Origin: Arenimonas terrae
GTDB lineage: Bacteria > Pseudomonadota > Gammaproteobacteria > Xanthomonadales > Xanthomonadaceae
NCBI RefSeq assembly: GCF_006265115.1
Contig: NZ_SMDR01000002.1
Location: 557,743 to 621,742, forward strand
Length of the DNA stretch: 64,000 nucleotides
Reading direction: 5' to 3'
This document shows positions 7,408 to 61,158 of the stretch, piece after piece (position 1 is the stretch's first letter; each line of letters opens with the position of its first letter). The translations under genes and the position numbers were made by a program. The notes under the pieces were generated by a model. It searched no databases and had not been told where the DNA came from. It worked only from the letters and a program-made list of their open reading frames with translations.

Positions 7408-8055
7408 ATGAACTCTTCCGAATCCAACGCCCTGCCCCCGCTCAGCGCCACCGAAGCCCGCATCCTGGGCAGCCTGGTCGAGAAGGAAGCGACCACGCCC
7501 GAGGCCTATCCGCTCACCGCCAATGCCGTGCAGCTGGCCTGCAACCAGAAGAACAACCGCGATCCGATCCTGGAGCTCGAGGCCGGCGAAGTCGGCCACG
7601 CCCTGCGCGAGCTGGAATCGCGCGGGCTGGTGCAGTCGGTGCATGGCGCCCGCGCCCAGCGCTACGAACACCGGCTGTCGGCGGCGTATTCGCTGACGCG
7701 CCAGCAGCAGGCCCTGGTCAGCGTGCTGCTGCTGCGGGGTCCGCAGACCGCCGCCGAACTGCTGACCCGCTGCGAGCGCCTGAACGGCCCGCGCGAACTC
7801 GATGACGCGCGCCAGCAGCTCGAGCGCCTGATCCAGCGCGGCCTGGCCGTGAACCTGGGCCGCGGCGCCGGCCAGCGCGAAGACCGCTACATGCACCTGC
7901 TCGCGGGCCCGGTGTCGCCGGACCTGCTGGCCGCCGCCGCACCGCGCGCGGCCAGCCCGGCGCGCACGTCGCTCGAGGCCCGGGTCGAGGCGCTGGAGGC
8001 TCAAGTCGTCGAACTGAGCGACCAGGTCCGGCGTCTGCTCTCTCCCGCCGACTGA
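7408..8055 (+). CDS. yceH: YceH family (DUF480) winged-helix protein
   Basis: The 215-aa product matches the YceH family: LSATEARILGSLVEKE and TPEAYPLTANAVQLACNQKN at the N-terminus, then two winged-helix-like domains, a Pro/Ala linker and a short C-terminal coiled coil (VEALEAQVVELSDQVRRL). The family is widespread in Proteobacteria and its biochemical role is not established; DNA binding is suggested by the fold. The ATG at 7408 was preferred over an ATG 27 bases upstream because the family normally begins close to the LSATEARILG motif. Confidence 0.9.
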   Translation: MNSSESNALPPLSATEARILGSLVEKEATTPEAYPLTANAVQLACNQKNNRDPILELEAGEVGHALRELESRGLVQSVHGARAQRYEHRLSAAYSLTRQQQALVSVLLLRGPQTAAELLTRCERLNGPRELDDARQQLERLIQRGLAVNLGRGAGQREDRYMHLLAGPVSPDLLAAAAPRAASPARTSLEARVEALEAQVVELSDQVRRLLSPAD

Positions 8056-8093
8056 CGCGTAGGATGGGCGCCGCGCCCCCGCCGGAGACCGCC

Positions 8094-8837
8094 ATGCGCC
8101 CGAACACCCTGCCCTCCCTCGCGCTCGCCGCGATCGTGCTCATCACCGGCTGCGCCACCAGCGCCCAGGCCGACGACTGGAAGGACCGGCTCCGGGACAG
8201 CCTGGGCGGCTCGCGCAGTTCGCGCCTGAGCGAATCCGAGGCCTCCGGCGGCATCAAGGAGGCGCTGGCCCAGGGCGTGCACCGCGCCGTCACCCAGCTC
8301 GGCCGCACCGACGGCTTCTACGGCGACAGCGCCGTGCGCATCCGCATCCCCGGCCAGCTGGGGAAAATCGCCGACACCGCGCGCCAGCTGGGCGCCGGCC
8401 GCAAGGTCGACGAATTCGAGCTGTCGATGAACCGCGCCGCCGAAAAGGCCGTGCCGATCGCCGCCGACGTCTTCGCCGACGCGGTGCGGCAGATGACCGT
8501 GCGCGACGCCATCGACATCGTGCGCGGCGAACCCGACGCCGGCACCCGCTTCTTCCGCCGGGTCACCGAGGACCGGCTGCGCGCGCAGTTCCATCCCATC
8601 GTCGAGGACGCGACCGAAAGCGCCGGCGTCACCCAGCGCTACAAGGCCATGGTCGGACGCAACGCCGGCCTGGTGGCGCTGCTGGGCGGCTCGGAGTCGG
8701 TCGACCTGGACGATTACGTCACCGAGGCGGCGCTGGACGGCCTGTTCAAGGTCGTCGCCGACCAGGAGCGGGCCATCCGCGAGGATCCCGCGCAGCGTTC
8801 CAGCGAACTGCTGCGCAAGGTCTTCGGCAGCCGCTGA
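8094..8837 (+). CDS. DUF4197 lipoprotein
   Basis: The 247-aa product has a lipoprotein signal ending in LITGC (Cys near 19), then a full DUF4197 domain: GGIKEALAQGVHRAVTQLG, FELSMNRAAEKAVP, TRFFRRVTEDRLR and DDYVTEAALDGLF. Members are about this length and are periplasm-facing; their function is unknown. The start at 8094 follows CGGAGACC. The gene follows yceH by 38 bases and may share its transcript. Confidence 0.88.
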   Translation: MRPNTLPSLALAAIVLITGCATSAQADDWKDRLRDSLGGSRSSRLSESEASGGIKEALAQGVHRAVTQLGRTDGFYGDSAVRIRIPGQLGKIADTARQLGAGRKVDEFELSMNRAAEKAVPIAADVFADAVRQMTVRDAIDIVRGEPDAGTRFFRRVTEDRLRAQFHPIVEDATESAGVTQRYKAMVGRNAGLVALLGGSESVDLDDYVTEAALDGLFKVVADQERAIREDPAQRSSELLRKVFGSR

Positions 8838-55296: not shown

Positions 55297-56040
55297 TCAG
55301 GCGGGCGGGGTCAGGTCGGGCGGTTCGGGCGAAAATCGGGGCCTCAGGCCCAGCTGGGCGGACAGGGCCGCGACCAGGGCCGGCTTGAGCGCAGCCGGGT
55401 CGCCGGGGCCGCCCAAGTCTAGCACCGAGGTCACTTCCAGCCCCTGGAAACCGCAGGGATTGATGCGCCGGAACGGCTCCAGGTCCATGGCCACGTTGAA
55501 GGCCAGGCCGTGGAAGCTGCAGCCGCGGCGGACCCGCAGGCCCAGGGCCATCACCTTGGCGCCGTCCACGTAGATGCCGGGCGCGCCCTCCTTGCGGACC
55601 GCGGCGATGCCCTGCGCGGCCAGCACGTCGATCACGGCCTGTTCGATCCGGCAGACCAGTTCGCGCACGCCCAGGCCCAGCCGGCGCAGGTCCACCAGCG
55701 GGTAGGCCACGATCTGGCCAGGGCCGTGATAGGTCACCTGGCCGCCGCGGTCGACGTTGATCACCGGAATGTCGCCCGGCGCCAGCACGTGTTCGGGTTT
55801 GCCGGCCTGGCCCAGCGTGAACACCGGATCGTGTTCGACCAGCCACAGCTCGTCTTCGGTGTCGGGGCCGCGGGCGTCGGTGAGGCGCTGCATCGCGCGC
55901 CATACCGGCACGTAGGGCTGACGGCCGAGTTCACGCACCGCCCATGCCCGGCCCGCATCGCCGGCGCAGGCAGATGTGGCTTCGGGGCAGGACGCGTTCA
56001 GCATGTCTGGGCTCGCAGGGGAACTTCGGCGGAGCGACAT
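55297..56040 (-). CDS. lipB: Octanoyl-ACP:protein N-octanoyltransferase
   Basis: The 247-aa product has [60 protein letters not shown] (with Lys) and the acyl-acceptor Cys region [15 protein letters not shown]. It moves octanoyl from ACP to lipoyl domains. The ATG at 56040 is preceded by GGGAG; the N-terminal 25 residues look nonconserved. In related genomes ybeD usually lies just upstream, but here five unrelated genes separate them. Confidence 0.95.
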
Positions 56041-56126: not shown

Positions 56127-56747
56127 ATGCAACCGCTCGTCAAAGGCCTCCTGGCTGTCGCCATCTTCGCTGCCGGCATCGGCACGGTGATGCTTCTGGT
56201 CAAGGAAAGTCCCGCCACGATGTTGTCCGCCGACGGCGATGGCGACCGCATGGACCGGATCGAGCGCGAGCAGGAGAAGCGCTACGCCGAACTCAACGCG
56301 AAGCTTGACCGGCTCGCGGCGCATCTTGAGCGCGGCGCTTCGCCATCCGCGCCTCGCCGTTCGCCGCCGGCGCCGGTGCTCGACCTCGAGGCCGCCGCGG
56401 CGAAATCGCGCGACGTGCGCGCCGAACTCGAGCAGTCCGTCCTGTCCGAGCCGGTGTCGCCGCAGTGGGCCCTGGAAACGTCGCGCAGCATCGAGGCGGC
56501 GCTGGCTTCGGCCGATATCCGCGAAATCGGCGCCGAGCCTCCGCTGGGCCAGACCATCGAATGCCGGAGCACGATGTGCCGGATCGAAATGGTGTTCTCC
56601 AATCCCGATCACGCCATCGATGCAGGCACCGTTCTGAACATGGGCATCGCCGATCGCCTTCCTTACACCCGCGCAGTGCGCGATACGCTGCCGGATGGCA
56701 GCACGCAGATGATCGTCTATGCGTATCGCGACCGTCCCAAGTCGTGA
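56127..56747 (+). CDS. Family A protein, copy 1: membrane-anchored coiled coil with Cys-x4-Cys domain
   Basis: The 206-aa product (start at the ATG at 56127, matching copy 2; an ATG at 56064 is also possible) has an N-terminal transmembrane anchor (GLLAVAIFAAGIGTVMLL), a coiled coil (DRIEREQEKRYAELNAKLDR) and a Pro/Ala linker. The C-terminal domain has VSPQWALETSRSIEAAL, IECRSTMCRIEMVFSNP and LPDGSTQMIVYAYRD. The domain is shared with the gene at 58223 (about 50-60% similar over the last 100 residues). The two Cys are five apart and probably bonded in the periplasm. I recognise no described family. Confidence 0.7.
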   Translation: MQPLVKGLLAVAIFAAGIGTVMLLVKESPATMLSADGDGDRMDRIEREQEKRYAELNAKLDRLAAHLERGASPSAPRRSPPAPVLDLEAAAAKSRDVRAELEQSVLSEPVSPQWALETSRSIEAALASADIREIGAEPPLGQTIECRSTMCRIEMVFSNPDHAIDAGTVLNMGIADRLPYTRAVRDTLPDGSTQMIVYAYRDRPKS

Positions 56748-56919
56748 GCATGTCCGCATGCGGCGCGCGCTTGCGTTCTTGTACACGTAGACGAAATTGA
56801 CACGGGCGCGCATGTAGGCGCGGACCCCAAACAAAACAGACCTCAACCCCGACCGGGAGGATCAACGGCCTGATGGCTTCGATCCCGCACGGCGGCATTG
56901 TGCAACCAAGGAGCCAACC

Positions 56920-57438
56920 ATGTCCAAGTCCATCTCTCGCCTCGCCGCGGCCGTCATCACGCTGACCGTGTCGCAGGCCGCGCTCGCAGACAGCAAGACC
57001 GTCGGGCCGAGCCAGTGCCAGCCCTACGGCCAGTCGTCGTCCTACGACACCCTGGCGATCCGCGCCGACGGCGTTCAGAACAAGACCACGAACACCAACA
57101 AGTACGTGATCTGCCCGCTCGACCGCGATGCCGAAAGCAGCTGGACTGCCGAGAACGGCATGGGGATGATCGTGTACTTCGTCTACACCGGCAACGGCAC
57201 GATCCAGTGCACCCTCACGGTCGGCACCGATGTCGCGGGCGTCGACGACGGCCCGGTCGCAGTCTCCGCCAACGCCGTTCCCTATGTTGGGAACCTGTGG
57301 GCGATCCAGTTCGAAGAACGCGCTGGCGAGTCGTTCCAGCCGGCGACGATGACCTGCCGCCTCCCGCCCCAGGCCAAGCTGAGCTTCTACCAGTACAGCG
57401 AAGACACCGCGACCAACCCGGCTCCGCCGGCCCCGTGA
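56920..57438 (+). CDS. Family B protein, copy 1: secreted four-cysteine protein
   Basis: The 172-aa product has a Sec signal (AAAVITLTVSQAALA) and four Cys in the mature part: CQPYGQ, YVICPL, IQCTLTV and TCRLPP. The core SSYDTLAIRADGVQNKTTNT and NKYVICP is nearly identical in all three copies (57630 and 58937). The tail is acidic and Pro-rich (SEDTATNPAPPAP). The signature G-x-N...V-x-CP...C...CxLPP recalls broad secreted beta-sandwich-like hypothetical families, but no named domain. A strong AAGGAG site precedes the ATG. Confidence 0.75.
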   Translation: MSKSISRLAAAVITLTVSQAALADSKTVGPSQCQPYGQSSSYDTLAIRADGVQNKTTNTNKYVICPLDRDAESSWTAENGMGMIVYFVYTGNGTIQCTLTVGTDVAGVDDGPVAVSANAVPYVGNLWAIQFEERAGESFQPATMTCRLPPQAKLSFYQYSEDTATNPAPPAP

Positions 57439-57497
57439 TTCGTCGCCGCGCCAGTGGAGCGCGGCCTCGTTCACCCGGTCTTCCGCAAGGTTTGCCA

Positions 57498-57520
57498 GCC
57501 GGCGGGACTCACCCGCCGGC
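57498..57520 (+). repeat. GC hairpin between family B copies 1 and 2
   Basis: GCCGGCGGG-ACTCA-CCCGCCGGC is a perfect 9-bp stem. No T-run follows, so it may not terminate but could reduce read-through or protect the first mRNA. A C/G block (CCCCCCGGGGG) lies directly after. Confidence 0.6.
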
Positions 57521-57629
57521 CCCCCGGGGGCTAAGCGCTTCTTCGTCCCGCCGGTGACATCTCCACCGACACCCACCCCTTGAGGCCCGAACCCGATTCG
57601 GCGCCTCTCCCAATCGATCCGGAGCTCCG

Positions 57630-58154
57630 ATGAACGCCAAGATCCTTGCCGCTGTCCTGCTGCTGACGGCGCCGCTGTCCGCACAAGCCGATTCCGACGC
57701 CAAGATGATCAGCCCGGGCCTTTGCCAGCCGTACGGCCAGACGTCGACCTACGACACCCTGGCGATCCGCGCCGACGGCATCCAGAACAAGACCACCAAT
57801 TCCAACAAGTACTTCATCTGCGGCGTCGGCCGCGACGGCGAGTCGGCCTGGGATCCCGAAGGTGAAGGCGGCCAGTCGATGCTGCTGTACTTCGTCTACG
57901 AAGGAAACGGCAGCATCCAGTGCACCCGCACCATCGGCACCGACCTGGGCGACTACAACGTCGTGCCCGGCCCGGTCTCCGACACCGTCAACGCGGTGCG
58001 CGCGGTGCCCTACAACCTCTGGGTTGCGACCTTCCCGGAGGCAGCGGGCGACAGCTTCCAGGCCGCGACGTTCACCTGCCGCATTCCGCCGCAAGCCAAG
58101 TTCTCGTTCGCCCAGGTCTACGAGAGCGTCGGCACCGACACCATCGACCCGTAA
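57630..58154 (+). CDS. Family B protein, copy 2: secreted four-cysteine protein
   Basis: The 174-aa product has a signal peptide (KILAAVLLLTAPLSAQA). The four Cys keep their positions: LCQPYGQ, YFICGVG, IQCTRTI and FTCRIPP, although the usual CP after the second Cys is CG here. The core TSTYDTLAIRADGIQNKTTN is conserved to near identity at DNA level too. The middle has an extra Glu/Gly stretch (DPEGEGG), and the tail is short and acidic. A GGAG site precedes the ATG. Confidence 0.75.
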   Translation: MNAKILAAVLLLTAPLSAQADSDAKMISPGLCQPYGQTSTYDTLAIRADGIQNKTTNSNKYFICGVGRDGESAWDPEGEGGQSMLLYFVYEGNGSIQCTRTIGTDLGDYNVVPGPVSDTVNAVRAVPYNLWVATFPEAAGDSFQAATFTCRIPPQAKFSFAQVYESVGTDTIDP

Positions 58155-58180
58155 CCGCGTCCTCACGACGCAGGCACGGT

Positions 58181-58204
58181 CGGAGCGGCCCTCGTGCCGC
58201 TCCG
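58181..58204 (+). repeat. Perfect hairpin between family B copy 2 and family A copy 2
   Basis: CGGAGCGGC-CCTCGT-GCCGCTCCG is a 9-bp perfect stem in the 68-base spacer. It ends 18 bases before the next start codon, so it could regulate translation or stability rather than terminate. Confidence 0.6.
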
Positions 58205-58222
58205 GCCAATGGACGGACTGGA

Positions 58223-58855
58223 ATGAATACTGCGCTCAAGATCATGGCGTCTGCCGTTTGCCTGGCCGCAGCCGCCGCTGGCGGTTATGGCCTGTCGCGC
58301 CTGCAGACGCCCGCGGCCGCGGCCGCGGAAGCAGACAACGGCCTGGCCGCCCAGCTGGCCGAACAGGCGCTCAGGCAGCAGGCGCTTGAAGAGAAGCTGG
58401 ACAGGCTCGTGGCCGACATCCAGGGGCGCCGCGCGTCGGCATCGGAGCGCTCGCGAGAACAGGACGGCGCAGCGAGCCGGCAGACCCTGAGCGAGCGCAT
58501 CGCCGCGTCCCGCATCGCCTCCGAAGCGCTGCAGTCGTCGCTGGAGAACCGGGTCGCCAACGAAGCGGTCTCGCCCGCCTGGGCGCTCGCGACCACCCGC
58601 CAGATCGAGGAGTCGCTGAGCGCCGAACACCTGCAGGAAGTGGGAGCCACCCCCCCGCTGCAAAGCAGCATCGAATGCAGAAGCTCCATATGTCGAATCG
58701 AGATGGTCTATGACAATCCGGGCAGCATCGGCGAAGCCGCTCTGATGCTGGGCATGGCCATCAACGAAGACCTTCCGTTCACCCGGTCCTTCCAGGTGTC
58801 GCTTCCGGACGGAAGTACCCAGATCGTTGTTTACGCCACTCGGAAGCAAATTTGA
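58223..58855 (+). CDS. Family A protein, copy 2: membrane-anchored coiled coil with Cys-x4-Cys domain
   Basis: The 210-aa product has an N-terminal anchor (IMASAVCLAAAAAGGYGL), a coiled coil (AEQALRQQALEEKLDRLVAD) and a variable linker. The C-terminal domain has VSPAWALATTRQIEESL, IECRSSICRIEMVYDNP and LPDGSTQIVVYATRK. The IECRSxxCRIEMV and LPDGSTQ blocks match copy 1; the coiled coil and linker have diverged, as if only the distal domain is constrained. It may be translated from the same mRNA as copy 2 of family B. Confidence 0.7.
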   Translation: MNTALKIMASAVCLAAAAAGGYGLSRLQTPAAAAAEADNGLAAQLAEQALRQQALEEKLDRLVADIQGRRASASERSREQDGAASRQTLSERIAASRIASEALQSSLENRVANEAVSPAWALATTRQIEESLSAEHLQEVGATPPLQSSIECRSSICRIEMVYDNPGSIGEAALMLGMAINEDLPFTRSFQVSLPDGSTQIVVYATRKQI

Positions 58856-58936
58856 TACTGAACTGAAAAGGCGCTGTCCCGAGGTTTCCTTCCAGAAAAC
58901 TGCGGTCACAGCATCGTGGCCAACCCGGAGTCCACC

Positions 58937-59467
58937 ATGAAGACAAGAAGTACGCTTTCCGCCGCACTCTCGATTTCCTTGCTTTCAGGCTTGGCGCTTT
59001 CCAACGCACATGCCGCCAACGACAACAAGCAGTTCAGTCCTGCCGAATGCCAGCCGTATGGCCAGACGTCGACCTACGACACCCTGGCGATCCGTGCCGA
59101 CGGCGTCCAGAACAAGACCACCAACACCAACAAGTACACGATCTGCCCGATCGTGCACGACGCGGACGGGTCCTGGAGCGCGGATTCGGGGCTTACGGTT
59201 GTCCTGGTTTTTGCGTACGCGGGGAACGGCACGATCGAATGCACCCTGACGGTGGGCATCGACACGGCTGGCATCCAGCTTCCGGCCACCCAGACCGTGG
59301 CCGCGTCCCCCTTCCTTGCAGGCCTGAAGATCATCAACTTCACGGAAATGAGCGGCACGAGCGAGCAGCCCGGCACCGTCGTGTGCCGCCTTCCGCCCGG
59401 CGCGAAGCTGAGCTACATCCGATCGGGGGAGGAGGCGGAGACGGATACCGATCCGCCGGCCCCCTGA
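58937..59467 (+). CDS. Family B protein, copy 3: secreted four-cysteine protein
   Basis: The 176-aa product has a signal peptide (LSISLLSGLALSNAHA). Four Cys again: ECQPYGQ, YTICPIV, IECTLTV and VCRLPPG. The core TSTYDTLAIRADGVQNKTTN is identical to the other copies except at two or three residues. The last residues, EEAETDTDPPAP, form the same acidic Pro-rich tail. A GGAG site precedes the ATG, and a strong terminator follows. It ends the five-gene cluster. Confidence 0.75.
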   Translation: MKTRSTLSAALSISLLSGLALSNAHAANDNKQFSPAECQPYGQTSTYDTLAIRADGVQNKTTNTNKYTICPIVHDADGSWSADSGLTVVLVFAYAGNGTIECTLTVGIDTAGIQLPATQTVAASPFLAGLKIINFTEMSGTSEQPGTVVCRLPPGAKLSYIRSGEEAETDTDPPAP

Positions 59468-59493
59468 CTCGCAGTTTCACCGCTGAGAAACAG

Positions 59494-59523
59494 GAAGCCG
59501 CCCATCGGGCGGCTTCTTTTTTG
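59494..59523 (+). terminator. Rho-independent terminator ending the A/B gene cluster
   Basis: GAAGCCGCCC-ATC-GGGCGGCTTC is a perfect 10-bp stem followed by seven T. It stands 27 bases after the stop of family B copy 3 and ends the plus-strand transcript just before the convergent ybeD gene. Confidence 0.93.
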
Positions 59524-59540: not shown

Positions 59541-59819
59541 TCAAAGCGTCCACTTCACGGCCGGGTGCTCGCGCAGGGCGCCGTGGGCGGCGTCGTAGTC
59601 CTCGCGCGAGTGCGCCTCAAAGACCAGGGTCACCGAGACGTAGTTGCCCTTGGTCGAGGGCTTGATGCGGGTGCGGTCGGGATAGACCGTCAGGCCCAGG
59701 GCCTCGAGCACCATCGGCATGACCAGGTGCAGGTCGGCGTCGGTGGCGCCCATGGCGCTGATCTCGAACACACCGGGAAACTGGAAGCCGTGCTCGGGGT
59801 TGTCGGACTGGATGCTCAT
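59541..59819 (-). CDS. ybeD: YbeD/DUF493 family protein
   Basis: The 92-aa product matches DUF493: GFQFPGVFEISAMGATDADL, VMPMVLEALG and YVSVTLVFEAHSREDYDAAH, with an ACT-like fold. YbeD is usually encoded next to lipB and may modulate lipoate metabolism. The ATG at 59819 follows GGTGGG; upstream ATGs at 59828 and 59855 are less likely. Confidence 0.9.
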   Translation of the reverse strand: MSIQSDNPEHGFQFPGVFEISAMGATDADLHLVMPMVLEALGLTVYPDRTRIKPSTKGNYVSVTLVFEAHSREDYDAAHGALREHPAVKWTL

Positions 59820-59869: not shown

Positions 59870-60991
59870 TCAGGCGCCGTCGATGCGGACCCGGTCGCGG
59901 CCTTCGGCCTTGGCCCGGTACATGGCCCGGTCGGCGGCCCGGTAGAGCTCGGCGCCGTCGGCCGGCGAGCGGCCGTCGGCACCGGCCACGCCGATGCTCA
60001 CCGAGACGCCGATCGGGCCTTCGCGCAGGCGCAGCGGCCGCTCGGCCAGGCTGCGGCGGAAGGCCTCGGCCACGCCGGCGGCCTCGCCCGTGGACACGCC
60101 GGGCAGCAGCACCGCGAACTCCTCGCCGCCCAGTCGGGCCAGATGCGCATCCGGCGACACGAACAGCTCGCGCATGCGCTCGGCGAAACGCGCCAGGCAG
60201 ACGTCGCCGGCCTCGTGGCCGTGGTCGTCGTTGATGCGCTTGAAGTGGTCGATGTCGAGCACCAGCAGGGTCATCGGTGATCGCGAACCCTGCGCGTCGG
60301 CCGAGCGCCGCTCGAGCACGCCGCTGAAGTGGCGACGGTTGGCCAGGCCGGTCAGCGGGTCGGTGCGGCTGAGCTGTTCGTACTGGTCGCGCTGGTGCCG
60401 CAGTGCCTCGTCCATGTCGAGCCGGTGTTCGTACTCGCGGTGACTGCGGAACAGGATGAGCACTACATAGACCAGATAGACGGCCATCGTCACCGTGATC
60501 GCCAGCGCATCACGGTCCAGGGCCAGCAACACCGGCGCCGGCAGGTAGATCAGCGCGATGCCGAGCAGGGCGCGCTCGCGGCGCATGCTGAAGTTGTGCG
60601 CGTAGGCGGTGGCGTAGGCGATCGAGCACAGCAGCGCCGCCGGGCGCGCCGGTTCGAAAGCAGGATCGAGCAGGGCCCAGGACAGCACGGCGCCCCACAG
60701 CGCCGACGTCGCCAGCACCACCGTCCACTGCCGGTCCAGCCACGCGGCCTGGAGCGCGGCCGGCTGTTCGGACGAGGGGGCGCGCATCACGAAGCGCAGC
60801 GCCGCCAGCACCAGGAACGCCGCGGCGATCAGGCCGCCGGCCACCGGGTGGTCCGAATACACCGAGGCGAAGCCGCCGACCACGGCCCAGCCGGCGAGAT
60901 AGAACACGCCGCCCAGCAGCACGCGCTGCCGGGTGTCGGCCACTTCGCGGATCAGGCGCAGGCGCGCGTCATCACCACCGCCCTCTTCCAT
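59870..60991 (-). CDS. Membrane diguanylate cyclase (GGDEF) without I-site
   Basis: The 373-aa product has about six transmembrane helices and then a GGDEF domain with LARLGGEEFAVLLPG. The inhibitory RxxD is absent: at the expected place it reads VSPD, one residue off register. It therefore should not be product-inhibited like the cyclase at 3321. The ATG at 60991 was chosen for its GGGGG site upstream. It makes cyclic-di-GMP at the inner membrane. Confidence 0.87.
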   Translation of the reverse strand: MEEGGGDDARLRLIREVADTRQRVLLGGVFYLAGWAVVGGFASVYSDHPVAGGLIAAAFLVLAALRFVMRAPSSEQPAALQAAWLDRQWTVVLATSALWGAVLSWALLDPAFEPARPAALLCSIAYATAYAHNFSMRRERALLGIALIYLPAPVLLALDRDALAITVTMAVYLVYVVLILFRSHREYEHRLDMDEALRHQRDQYEQLSRTDPLTGLANRRHFSGVLERRSADAQGSRSPMTLLVLDIDHFKRINDDHGHEAGDVCLARFAERMRELFVSPDAHLARLGGEEFAVLLPGVSTGEAAGVAEAFRRSLAERPLRLREGPIGVSVSIGVAGADGRSPADGAELYRAADRAMYRAKAEGRDRVRIDGA

Positions 60992-61091
60992 CGGACATGC
61001 CCCCTGCATGTGTCGCCGGCGGCTGCGGGAGCCGGCATACGGCCCGATTCTGTCACGACCGGCGCCGCGCGCGCTGCAACCGTGCGCAAAG

Positions 61092-61118
61092 AAAAAGGGG
61101 CCGGCTCGCGCCGGCCCC
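61092..61118 (-). terminator. Rho-independent terminator of dacC
   Basis: On the minus strand GGGGCCGGC-GCGA-GCCGGCCCC, a perfect 9-bp stem, is followed by TTTTTCTTT. It is 41 bases after the dacC stop. Confidence 0.9.
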
Positions 61119-61158
61119 GCATCCATTCAGCCCGGCCTTCAGGCCCGGCCTGCGGAAC

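Follow-up and report, generated by a model that had tools for sequence, protein, structure and literature searches.

Two gene families between lipB and ybeD

In a 64,000-nt window of the Arenimonas terrae genome (contig NZ_SMDR01000002.1, positions 557,743–621,742), five plus-strand open reading frames (ORFs), A1, B1, B2, A2 and B3, lie at 56127–59467 between the minus-strand genes lipB and ybeD, where the original prediction had placed them (Table 1). The cluster consists of copies of a two-gene module, A plus B, which is also present in other bacteria. Paralogy within the cluster goes beyond chance, as B2 retrieves B1 (expectation value E 5e-56) and B3 (4e-41), and A2 retrieves A1 (3e-35). 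No further clear copy of A or B was found in the 3.31 Mb genome (7 contigs), where two extra A matches (E 0.5–0.7) look like chance. The two sequence blocks ascribed to family A, IECRSxxCRIEMV and LPDGSTQ, are present in both A1 and A2.

A and B are families without a name in the annotation libraries searched. The five cluster proteins matched no naming family in Pfam, NCBIfam, PADLOC or PHROGs and gave only weak matches; 43 B and 33 A proteins compared with Pfam and NCBIfam also produced weak matches only, which fell short of the curated cut-offs wherever such values were given, and A and B profiles run against Protein Data Bank (PDB) sequences yielded only weak ones, the best for A (E 0.0012) falling over the anchor region. 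Several candidate identities were considered and set aside. The lipase-specific foldase profile (PF03280) matched only 1 of the 33 A proteins (E 0.077), neither T2SSM nor PilO from Pfam matched any of them at E 0.1, and the weak Pfam and NCBIfam matches of the 43 B proteins included no carbohydrate-binding module (CBM) family. A TolA- or TonB-like identity of A was also considered, but neither name appears among the titles of the best 50 of 913 Foldseek rows. No paper on the A–B pair was found in the open-licence literature. The claim that no described system carries these signatures stands at the family level, as searched, but adjacent pairs of an anchored chaperone and a secreted client are an already known kind.

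All three B paralogues share the core CQPYGQ(T/S)S(T/S)YDTLAIRADG(V/I)QNKTTN(T/S)NKY. Its 30 codons are 91–94% identical in nucleotide sequence, compared with 54–64% elsewhere in these genes, and where residues are identical the codons are identical as well in 71 of 82 cases within the core versus 104 of 158 outside it (p 7e-4, the pairs not being independent). This near-identity, silent sites included, suggests local gene conversion among the paralogues, or very strong constraint. The 'nearly invariant core' attributed to family B arose from this block in three genes and is peculiar to them, whereas the four cysteines noted alongside it are invariant family-wide.

The expected adjacency of lipB and ybeD holds in all 25 other same-genus genomes with a YbeD match (one further genome gave none), in which the aligned parts of the two genes range from overlapping by 46 bp to lying 64 bp apart. 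A1, A2, B1 and B3 had no match at lipB–ybeD in any of the 25, where as much as 1.5 kb was read to either side, and within the genomes sampled the insertion is therefore confined to the window's species; one same-genus genome (G012) has an A–B pair elsewhere (L089). In eight other genomes from three other genera A lies near lipB, on the far side of ybeD in 8/8 and never between the two genes. Five of these loci have B, one has a broken B (L084) and two have none (L090, L091), with a dacA-like gene beyond in three (L072, L079, L084). The lipB–ybeD region is a recurrent site of A, though the window's exact position differs from that of its relatives. At L084 (5648–6179; the same as L108) the B gene is frame-shifted beside an intact-looking A gene, near ybeD. 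In the window, ybeD is adjoined by a GGDEF-like gene (59870–61126) before dacA, as in 10 of the 25 same-genus loci.

The guanine-plus-cytosine content of the cluster is 65.2%, against 70.5% for the window, a difference of about 1.5 standard deviations of 700-nt stretches. A1 and B1 had no plasmid match and B2 no match in viral contigs; carriage by mobile elements was searched no further. Six terminator-like sites were found in the region where 2.9 are expected, and the one directly 3' of B3 has the longest stem and is likely the end of transcription of the A1–B3 cluster.

Table 1. Genes and features of the A–B cluster and its flanks, in window coordinates
Feature	Coordinates	Strand	Description
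lipB, left flank	55297..56040	minus	
A1	56127..56747	plus	206 aa; N-terminal membrane anchor (predicted), then a helical region; CRSTMCRIE and LPDGST in the C-terminal domain
B1	56920..57438	plus	172 aa; signal peptide; Cys 33, 65, 97, 146; jelly-roll-like model
B1 copy of 30-codon core	57016..57105	plus	
B2	57630..58154	plus	174 aa; 68 bp upstream of A2
B2 copy of 30-codon core	57723..57812	plus	
A2	58223..58855	plus	210 aa; A copy used for the structure model
A2 C-terminal (alpha-beta-beta)2 domain	58574..58840	plus	residues 118–206; predicted local distance difference test score (pLDDT) about 89–97 per ten-residue block
B3	58937..59467	plus	176 aa
B3 copy of 30-codon core	59048..59137	plus	
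Terminator-like hairpin	59492..59518	plus	12-pair stem and T run, directly 3' of B3
ybeD, right flank	59541..59819	minus	92-aa reading, taken as query

Pairing of A and B across genomes

That A and B are partners, as the original prediction proposed, is borne out by strong co-occurrence and by adjacency on the same strand in several families of the class. First profiles, built from five A and six B sequences, were searched against 297 genomes of the bacterial family and detected A in 27 and B in 17, with 16 genomes common to the two (Fisher p 2e-18). When 39 surrounding stretches were then searched with iterated profiles, B was found beside A in 9 of the 11 initially A-only genomes and A beside B in the sole B-only genome; after this reading of the surroundings 26 of 28 family genomes have both. 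Named organisms with the pair are Luteimonas arsenica, L. colneyensis, L. padinae and a Xanthomonadaceae metagenome assembly. Neither family matched a known, unrelated domain, nor does B occur mostly without A, the two outcomes named beforehand as counting against the partnership.

Among 229 genomes of the class, A was found in 16 and B in 5 (G000 counted in both), and the other four B genomes all have A; several of the class-level A matches (E near 1e-3) span the anchor and helices only. Reading 14 further class stretches revealed adjacent pairs in ten (L143, L145, L146, L147, L148, L150, L151, L153, L155, L156), spread over seven families besides that of the window; the stretches L144, L149, L152 and L154 showed none. 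A search with A3 of 398 phylum genomes, scoring at most 7 candidates per genome, yielded, G000 aside, matches no stronger than E 2e-4 in 18 genomes, mostly over the anchor and helices, and the claims made here extend as far as the class.

Over all loci, B lies within 700 bp for 46 of 53 A genes and always on the same strand (46/46), with 31 pairs in BA and 15 in AB order. L108 and L109, on the same contigs as L084 and L083, and L106, from another genome and near-identical to L107, were left out of this count, and one of the 46 pairs (L084) has the broken B. The loci read contain 70 B genes, and in 47 cases an A gene lies within 700 bp; the remaining 23 B genes are all in five genomes (G103, G104, G188, G381, G419) that hold A elsewhere. 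In the stretches read from G103, a 2.6 Mb single-contig genome, 16 B genes stand against 3 A genes, and B forms arrays of three (L074) and six (L075) and two further B-gene pairs (L104). Arrays of B without adjacent A, with A elsewhere in the genome, are what one would expect were a single A to serve several clients. A different arrangement is seen in L146 (7711–13817), where B genes alternate with genes of ~340 aa in a repeat of ~3.7 kb near glycosyltransferase-like genes, which may reflect a genuine tandem duplication or be an effect of assembly.

The evolutionary distances of A and B are correlated overall (0.52 over 45 pairs). None of 2000 free permutations reached this value, but some within-genome partner swaps did, and the true partners scored best in 5 of 8 genomes; the correlation need not be specific to the pairs. 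As for a third gene of the module, a rough survey of 55 loci gave 423 neighbour calls, made with a noisy home-made caller that produces many false frames; no neighbour family among them was present in over 6 loci, and one recurrent neighbour group is the lipA–lipB–ybeD synteny.

Predicted architecture and possible role of the pair

Across 43 B sequences only the four cysteines and the start methionine are invariant. A signal peptide is predicted for B, with an AxA site past the hydrophobic core in 60 of 69 B proteins, in line with the proposal that B is exported; a lipobox-like pattern matched 7 B proteins. The B1 model (8 sequences, pLDDT 73, predicted template modelling score 0.68) is nearly all beta. 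Its PDB matches are jelly rolls (Fbs1, CBM61, CBM27, CBM16, EphA7, CBM35; E about 4e-4 to 2e-3, template modelling score (TM) about 0.3–0.5), and its viral matches, with E as low as 4e-5, include tail-fibre proteins. The model supports a beta-sandwich fold for B and indicates no specific ligand. Both this model and that of A2 rest on shallow alignments, comprising the window sequences and related loci only.

In A (33 sequences) the invariant columns are the start methionine, two cysteines and one glycine, the cysteines of CRSxxCRI forming a CxxxxC pair. The N-terminal segment of A is more hydrophobic than that of B (median 2.52 versus 1.99), and an AxA site past the hydrophobic core occurs in 21 of 53 A proteins. 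The sequence of A leaves hardly any of the protein in the cytoplasm. The A2 model (7 sequences, mean pLDDT 77) consists of long helices followed by an alpha-beta-beta-alpha-beta-beta arrangement; an anchor, predicted from hydropathy, and long helices, predicted from this model, agree with the anchored, helical protein described originally. Among the best 50 of 913 Foldseek rows the highest target-length TM belongs to GspL periplasmic domains, namely 5n7l (XcpY) at 0.64, 2w7v (EpsL) at 0.62 and 5hl8, which we take to be GspL, at 0.56, while PilO (2rjz) is the last of these 50 with a TM of 0.25. Distant A-like proteins outside the family (L149:9177–9779, L152:7628–8326, L154:3487–4816) carry a CRxxxCR-type motif and have no recognised B; in L149 and L152 the protein finishes in a KGHxLP stretch. 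They raise the possibility that A is part of a larger superfamily whose members have other partners.

The explanation that we favour, tentatively and at less than even likelihood, is that A acts as an escort or foldase tethered to the membrane, with B as its exported client, perhaps one secreted by the type II route, in the manner of CpaB/CpaA or Lif/lipase but with no homology to these found. B would cross the inner membrane by Sec, shed its signal peptide and adopt a disulphide-bonded beta-sandwich fold in the periplasm. A, anchored to the inner membrane by its N-terminal helix, would hold B with its long helices and C-terminal (alpha-beta-beta)2 domain, either aiding folding or passing B to the machinery for export through the outer membrane, most probably the type II secretion system (T2SS). 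B would then be released outside or onto the surface, where it might bind a glycan or other surface, as the jelly-roll fold suggests. The contact between A and B, the escort or foldase role, the T2SS route and the binding target of B are what we infer. The original prediction had offered an anchored receptor or chaperone with a secreted product; the chaperone option is best supported because A has the layout of tethered T2SS chaperones, as given in PMC4713064, together with a fold like that of the T2SS platform, whereas interaction, secretion and activity are at the level of inference. The window's genome has a match to a GspG profile, as have 33 of 33 A-bearing genomes searched (G049, G258, G378, G412 and G522 were left out of this count), a distribution that permits but does not favour a T2SS route.

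A number of observations weigh against this explanation. GspG also occurs in 38 of 42 comparison genomes and does not discriminate (Fisher p 0.13), and the GspM profile PF04612, matched in 10 of 26 relatives, is unmatched in the window's genome, where GspG is the evidence for a T2SS; PilO profile matches occur in 26 of 26 relatives. None of the 913 Foldseek matches of A2 against the PDB at E up to 10 reaches 0.001, by E-value GspL ranks behind a designed protein, Peak6, and behind H-NOX domains, and residues 1–41 of the model, its anchor region, have a pLDDT under 50. When A was aligned by hhalign with 10 GspM and 19 PilO rows, the probability stayed below 5%; the same method also shows no relation of GspM and PilO to each other. 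Three of 53 A genes (L143, L146, L148) lack a strongly hydrophobic N-terminus, though the start picked for them may be wrong, and of the three A proteins with a lipobox-like pattern only L086 has it convincingly placed, this homologue (7658–8239) carrying a VAGC lipobox in place of the plain membrane helix. Seven of 53 A genes have no recognised B (L090, L091, L149, L152, L095, which has a contig end to one side of it, and two on the short contig of L154), G178 and G199, of one genus, keep A near ybeD with B found in neither, and within-genome partner swaps matched the true distance correlation in 51 of 768 pairings. No experiment on A or B was found.

Of the alternatives, a fixed envelope or surface structure in which both proteins stay cell-bound, such as an adhesin with its periplasmic anchor, is unlikely but fares best. 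The CBM-like and tail-fibre-like matches of B and the one lipoprotein-like A homologue would be in keeping with it, whereas B outnumbers A, both in the loci read and in G103, and has a signal peptide that looks cleavable and no evident anchor of its own.

We regard as somewhat more doubtful the possibility that B is a secreted antibacterial protein and A an anchored periplasmic immunity protein that shields the producer. A small secreted protein beside an anchored one, many divergent copies, a patchy distribution and presence in one species of a genus with absence from the same place in others would all fit such a toxin–immunity pair, and since the 23 B genes without a close A are in genomes that hold A, protection could act in trans. 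However, the B arrays of three and six in G103, with no A in the stretch, differ from the usual one-to-one guard, G178 and G199 retain A without B, PADLOC and PHROGs gave no match of note, and the jelly-roll-like B has no known toxin fold, though binding parts of some toxins are among its matches.

Improbable, too, is a signalling role in which A would be an inner-membrane sensor and B an exported ligand or adhesin that it senses in the envelope. The anchor, long helical stalk and periplasmic domain of A and its pairing with B would suit a receptor, but A has hardly any cytoplasmic part to pass on a signal, and the rough neighbour clustering brought up no regulator or other third gene that recurs widely. 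Mere chance neighbourhood or hitch-hiking, with which the inheritance of adjacent genes together and the partner swaps would be compatible, is very improbable: 46 of 46 neighbouring pairs share a strand, they come in both gene orders and from several families of the class, and the majority lie elsewhere than at lipB.

Cargo recognition by the T2SS has long been an unsolved problem, for which a compact unnamed module with the rare fold of the platform would offer a tractable handle. Spread over several bacterial families, the A–B module would give a function to two unnamed families, and should the secretion reading fail, a conserved exported pair would still be a useful target in the search for new envelope functions.

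Comparison with known systems

The B model resembles CBM16, CBM35, CBM61 and CBM27, beta-sandwich jelly rolls that are among its best matches, at a TM of only about 0.3–0.5 and 6–12% identity, with other jelly rolls (Fbs1, the EphA7 ligand-binding domain, a phage tailspike) matching equally. Unlike CBMs, B has four invariant cysteines, is free-standing and exported, and fits no Pfam family.

A can be compared with GspM, GspL, PilO and PilN, the platform proteins of the T2SS and type IV pili, which share with A a membrane helix, a membrane-proximal part and a ferredoxin-like domain. According to PMC6233222, (alpha-beta-beta)2 is a rare permutation of the ferredoxin fold found in GspL, whose closest structural homologue so ordered is GspM, and the two have a common periplasmic domain organisation. 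The A model has the same rare order, and its (alpha-beta-beta)2 domain, predicted to be periplasmic and to follow a single membrane helix, corresponds to the GspM/PilO layout. There are also differences. No coiled coil is predicted for GspM according to PMC6233222, whereas A has long helices; unlike GspM and PilO, A has the invariant CxxxxC pair and occurs in several copies, most of them beside B; and as far as the rough neighbour survey goes, in which neighbours were not annotated singly, A genes seem not to lie in gsp or pil clusters. Because hhalign finds no relation to GspM or PilO, the likeness of A to these platform proteins is to be taken as one of modelled fold and layout rather than as a sign of kinship. 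A closer connection, with A as a cargo-dedicated relative of the T2SS platform, that is a GspM/PilO-like bitopic protein uncoupled from the core, multiplied, matched to individual secreted jelly-roll proteins, and plugging its own B into a shared T2SS via GspL, is conceivable but quite unlikely.

The tethered escort or foldase that we favour has its nearest counterparts in the chaperones CpaB, for CpaA, and Lif (LipB/LipH), for lipase. No homology of A to either was found. As described in PMC4713064 and PMC13381987, CpaB has an SRPBCC domain and the chaperoning domain of Lif is helical, whereas A ends in an (alpha-beta-beta)2 domain, and unlike the CpaA and lipase clients, B is small and has no recognised enzyme family. 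PMC4713064 describes a T2SS chaperone as a protein that is encoded beside its client and co-regulated with it, has its membrane domain at the N-terminus and its C-terminus in the periplasm, and is needed for secretion. A genes lie beside B in 46 of 53 cases, B being a putative T2SS client, and hydropathy predicts the membrane helix and periplasmic C-terminus; the shared strand, short gaps and terminator-like site after B3 are compatible with co-regulation of the two genes. CpaB–CpaA and Lif–lipase are, like A and B, products of adjacent genes, the chaperone having an N-terminal membrane helix and a periplasmic C-terminus as predicted for A, and the client a Sec signal peptide as predicted for B.

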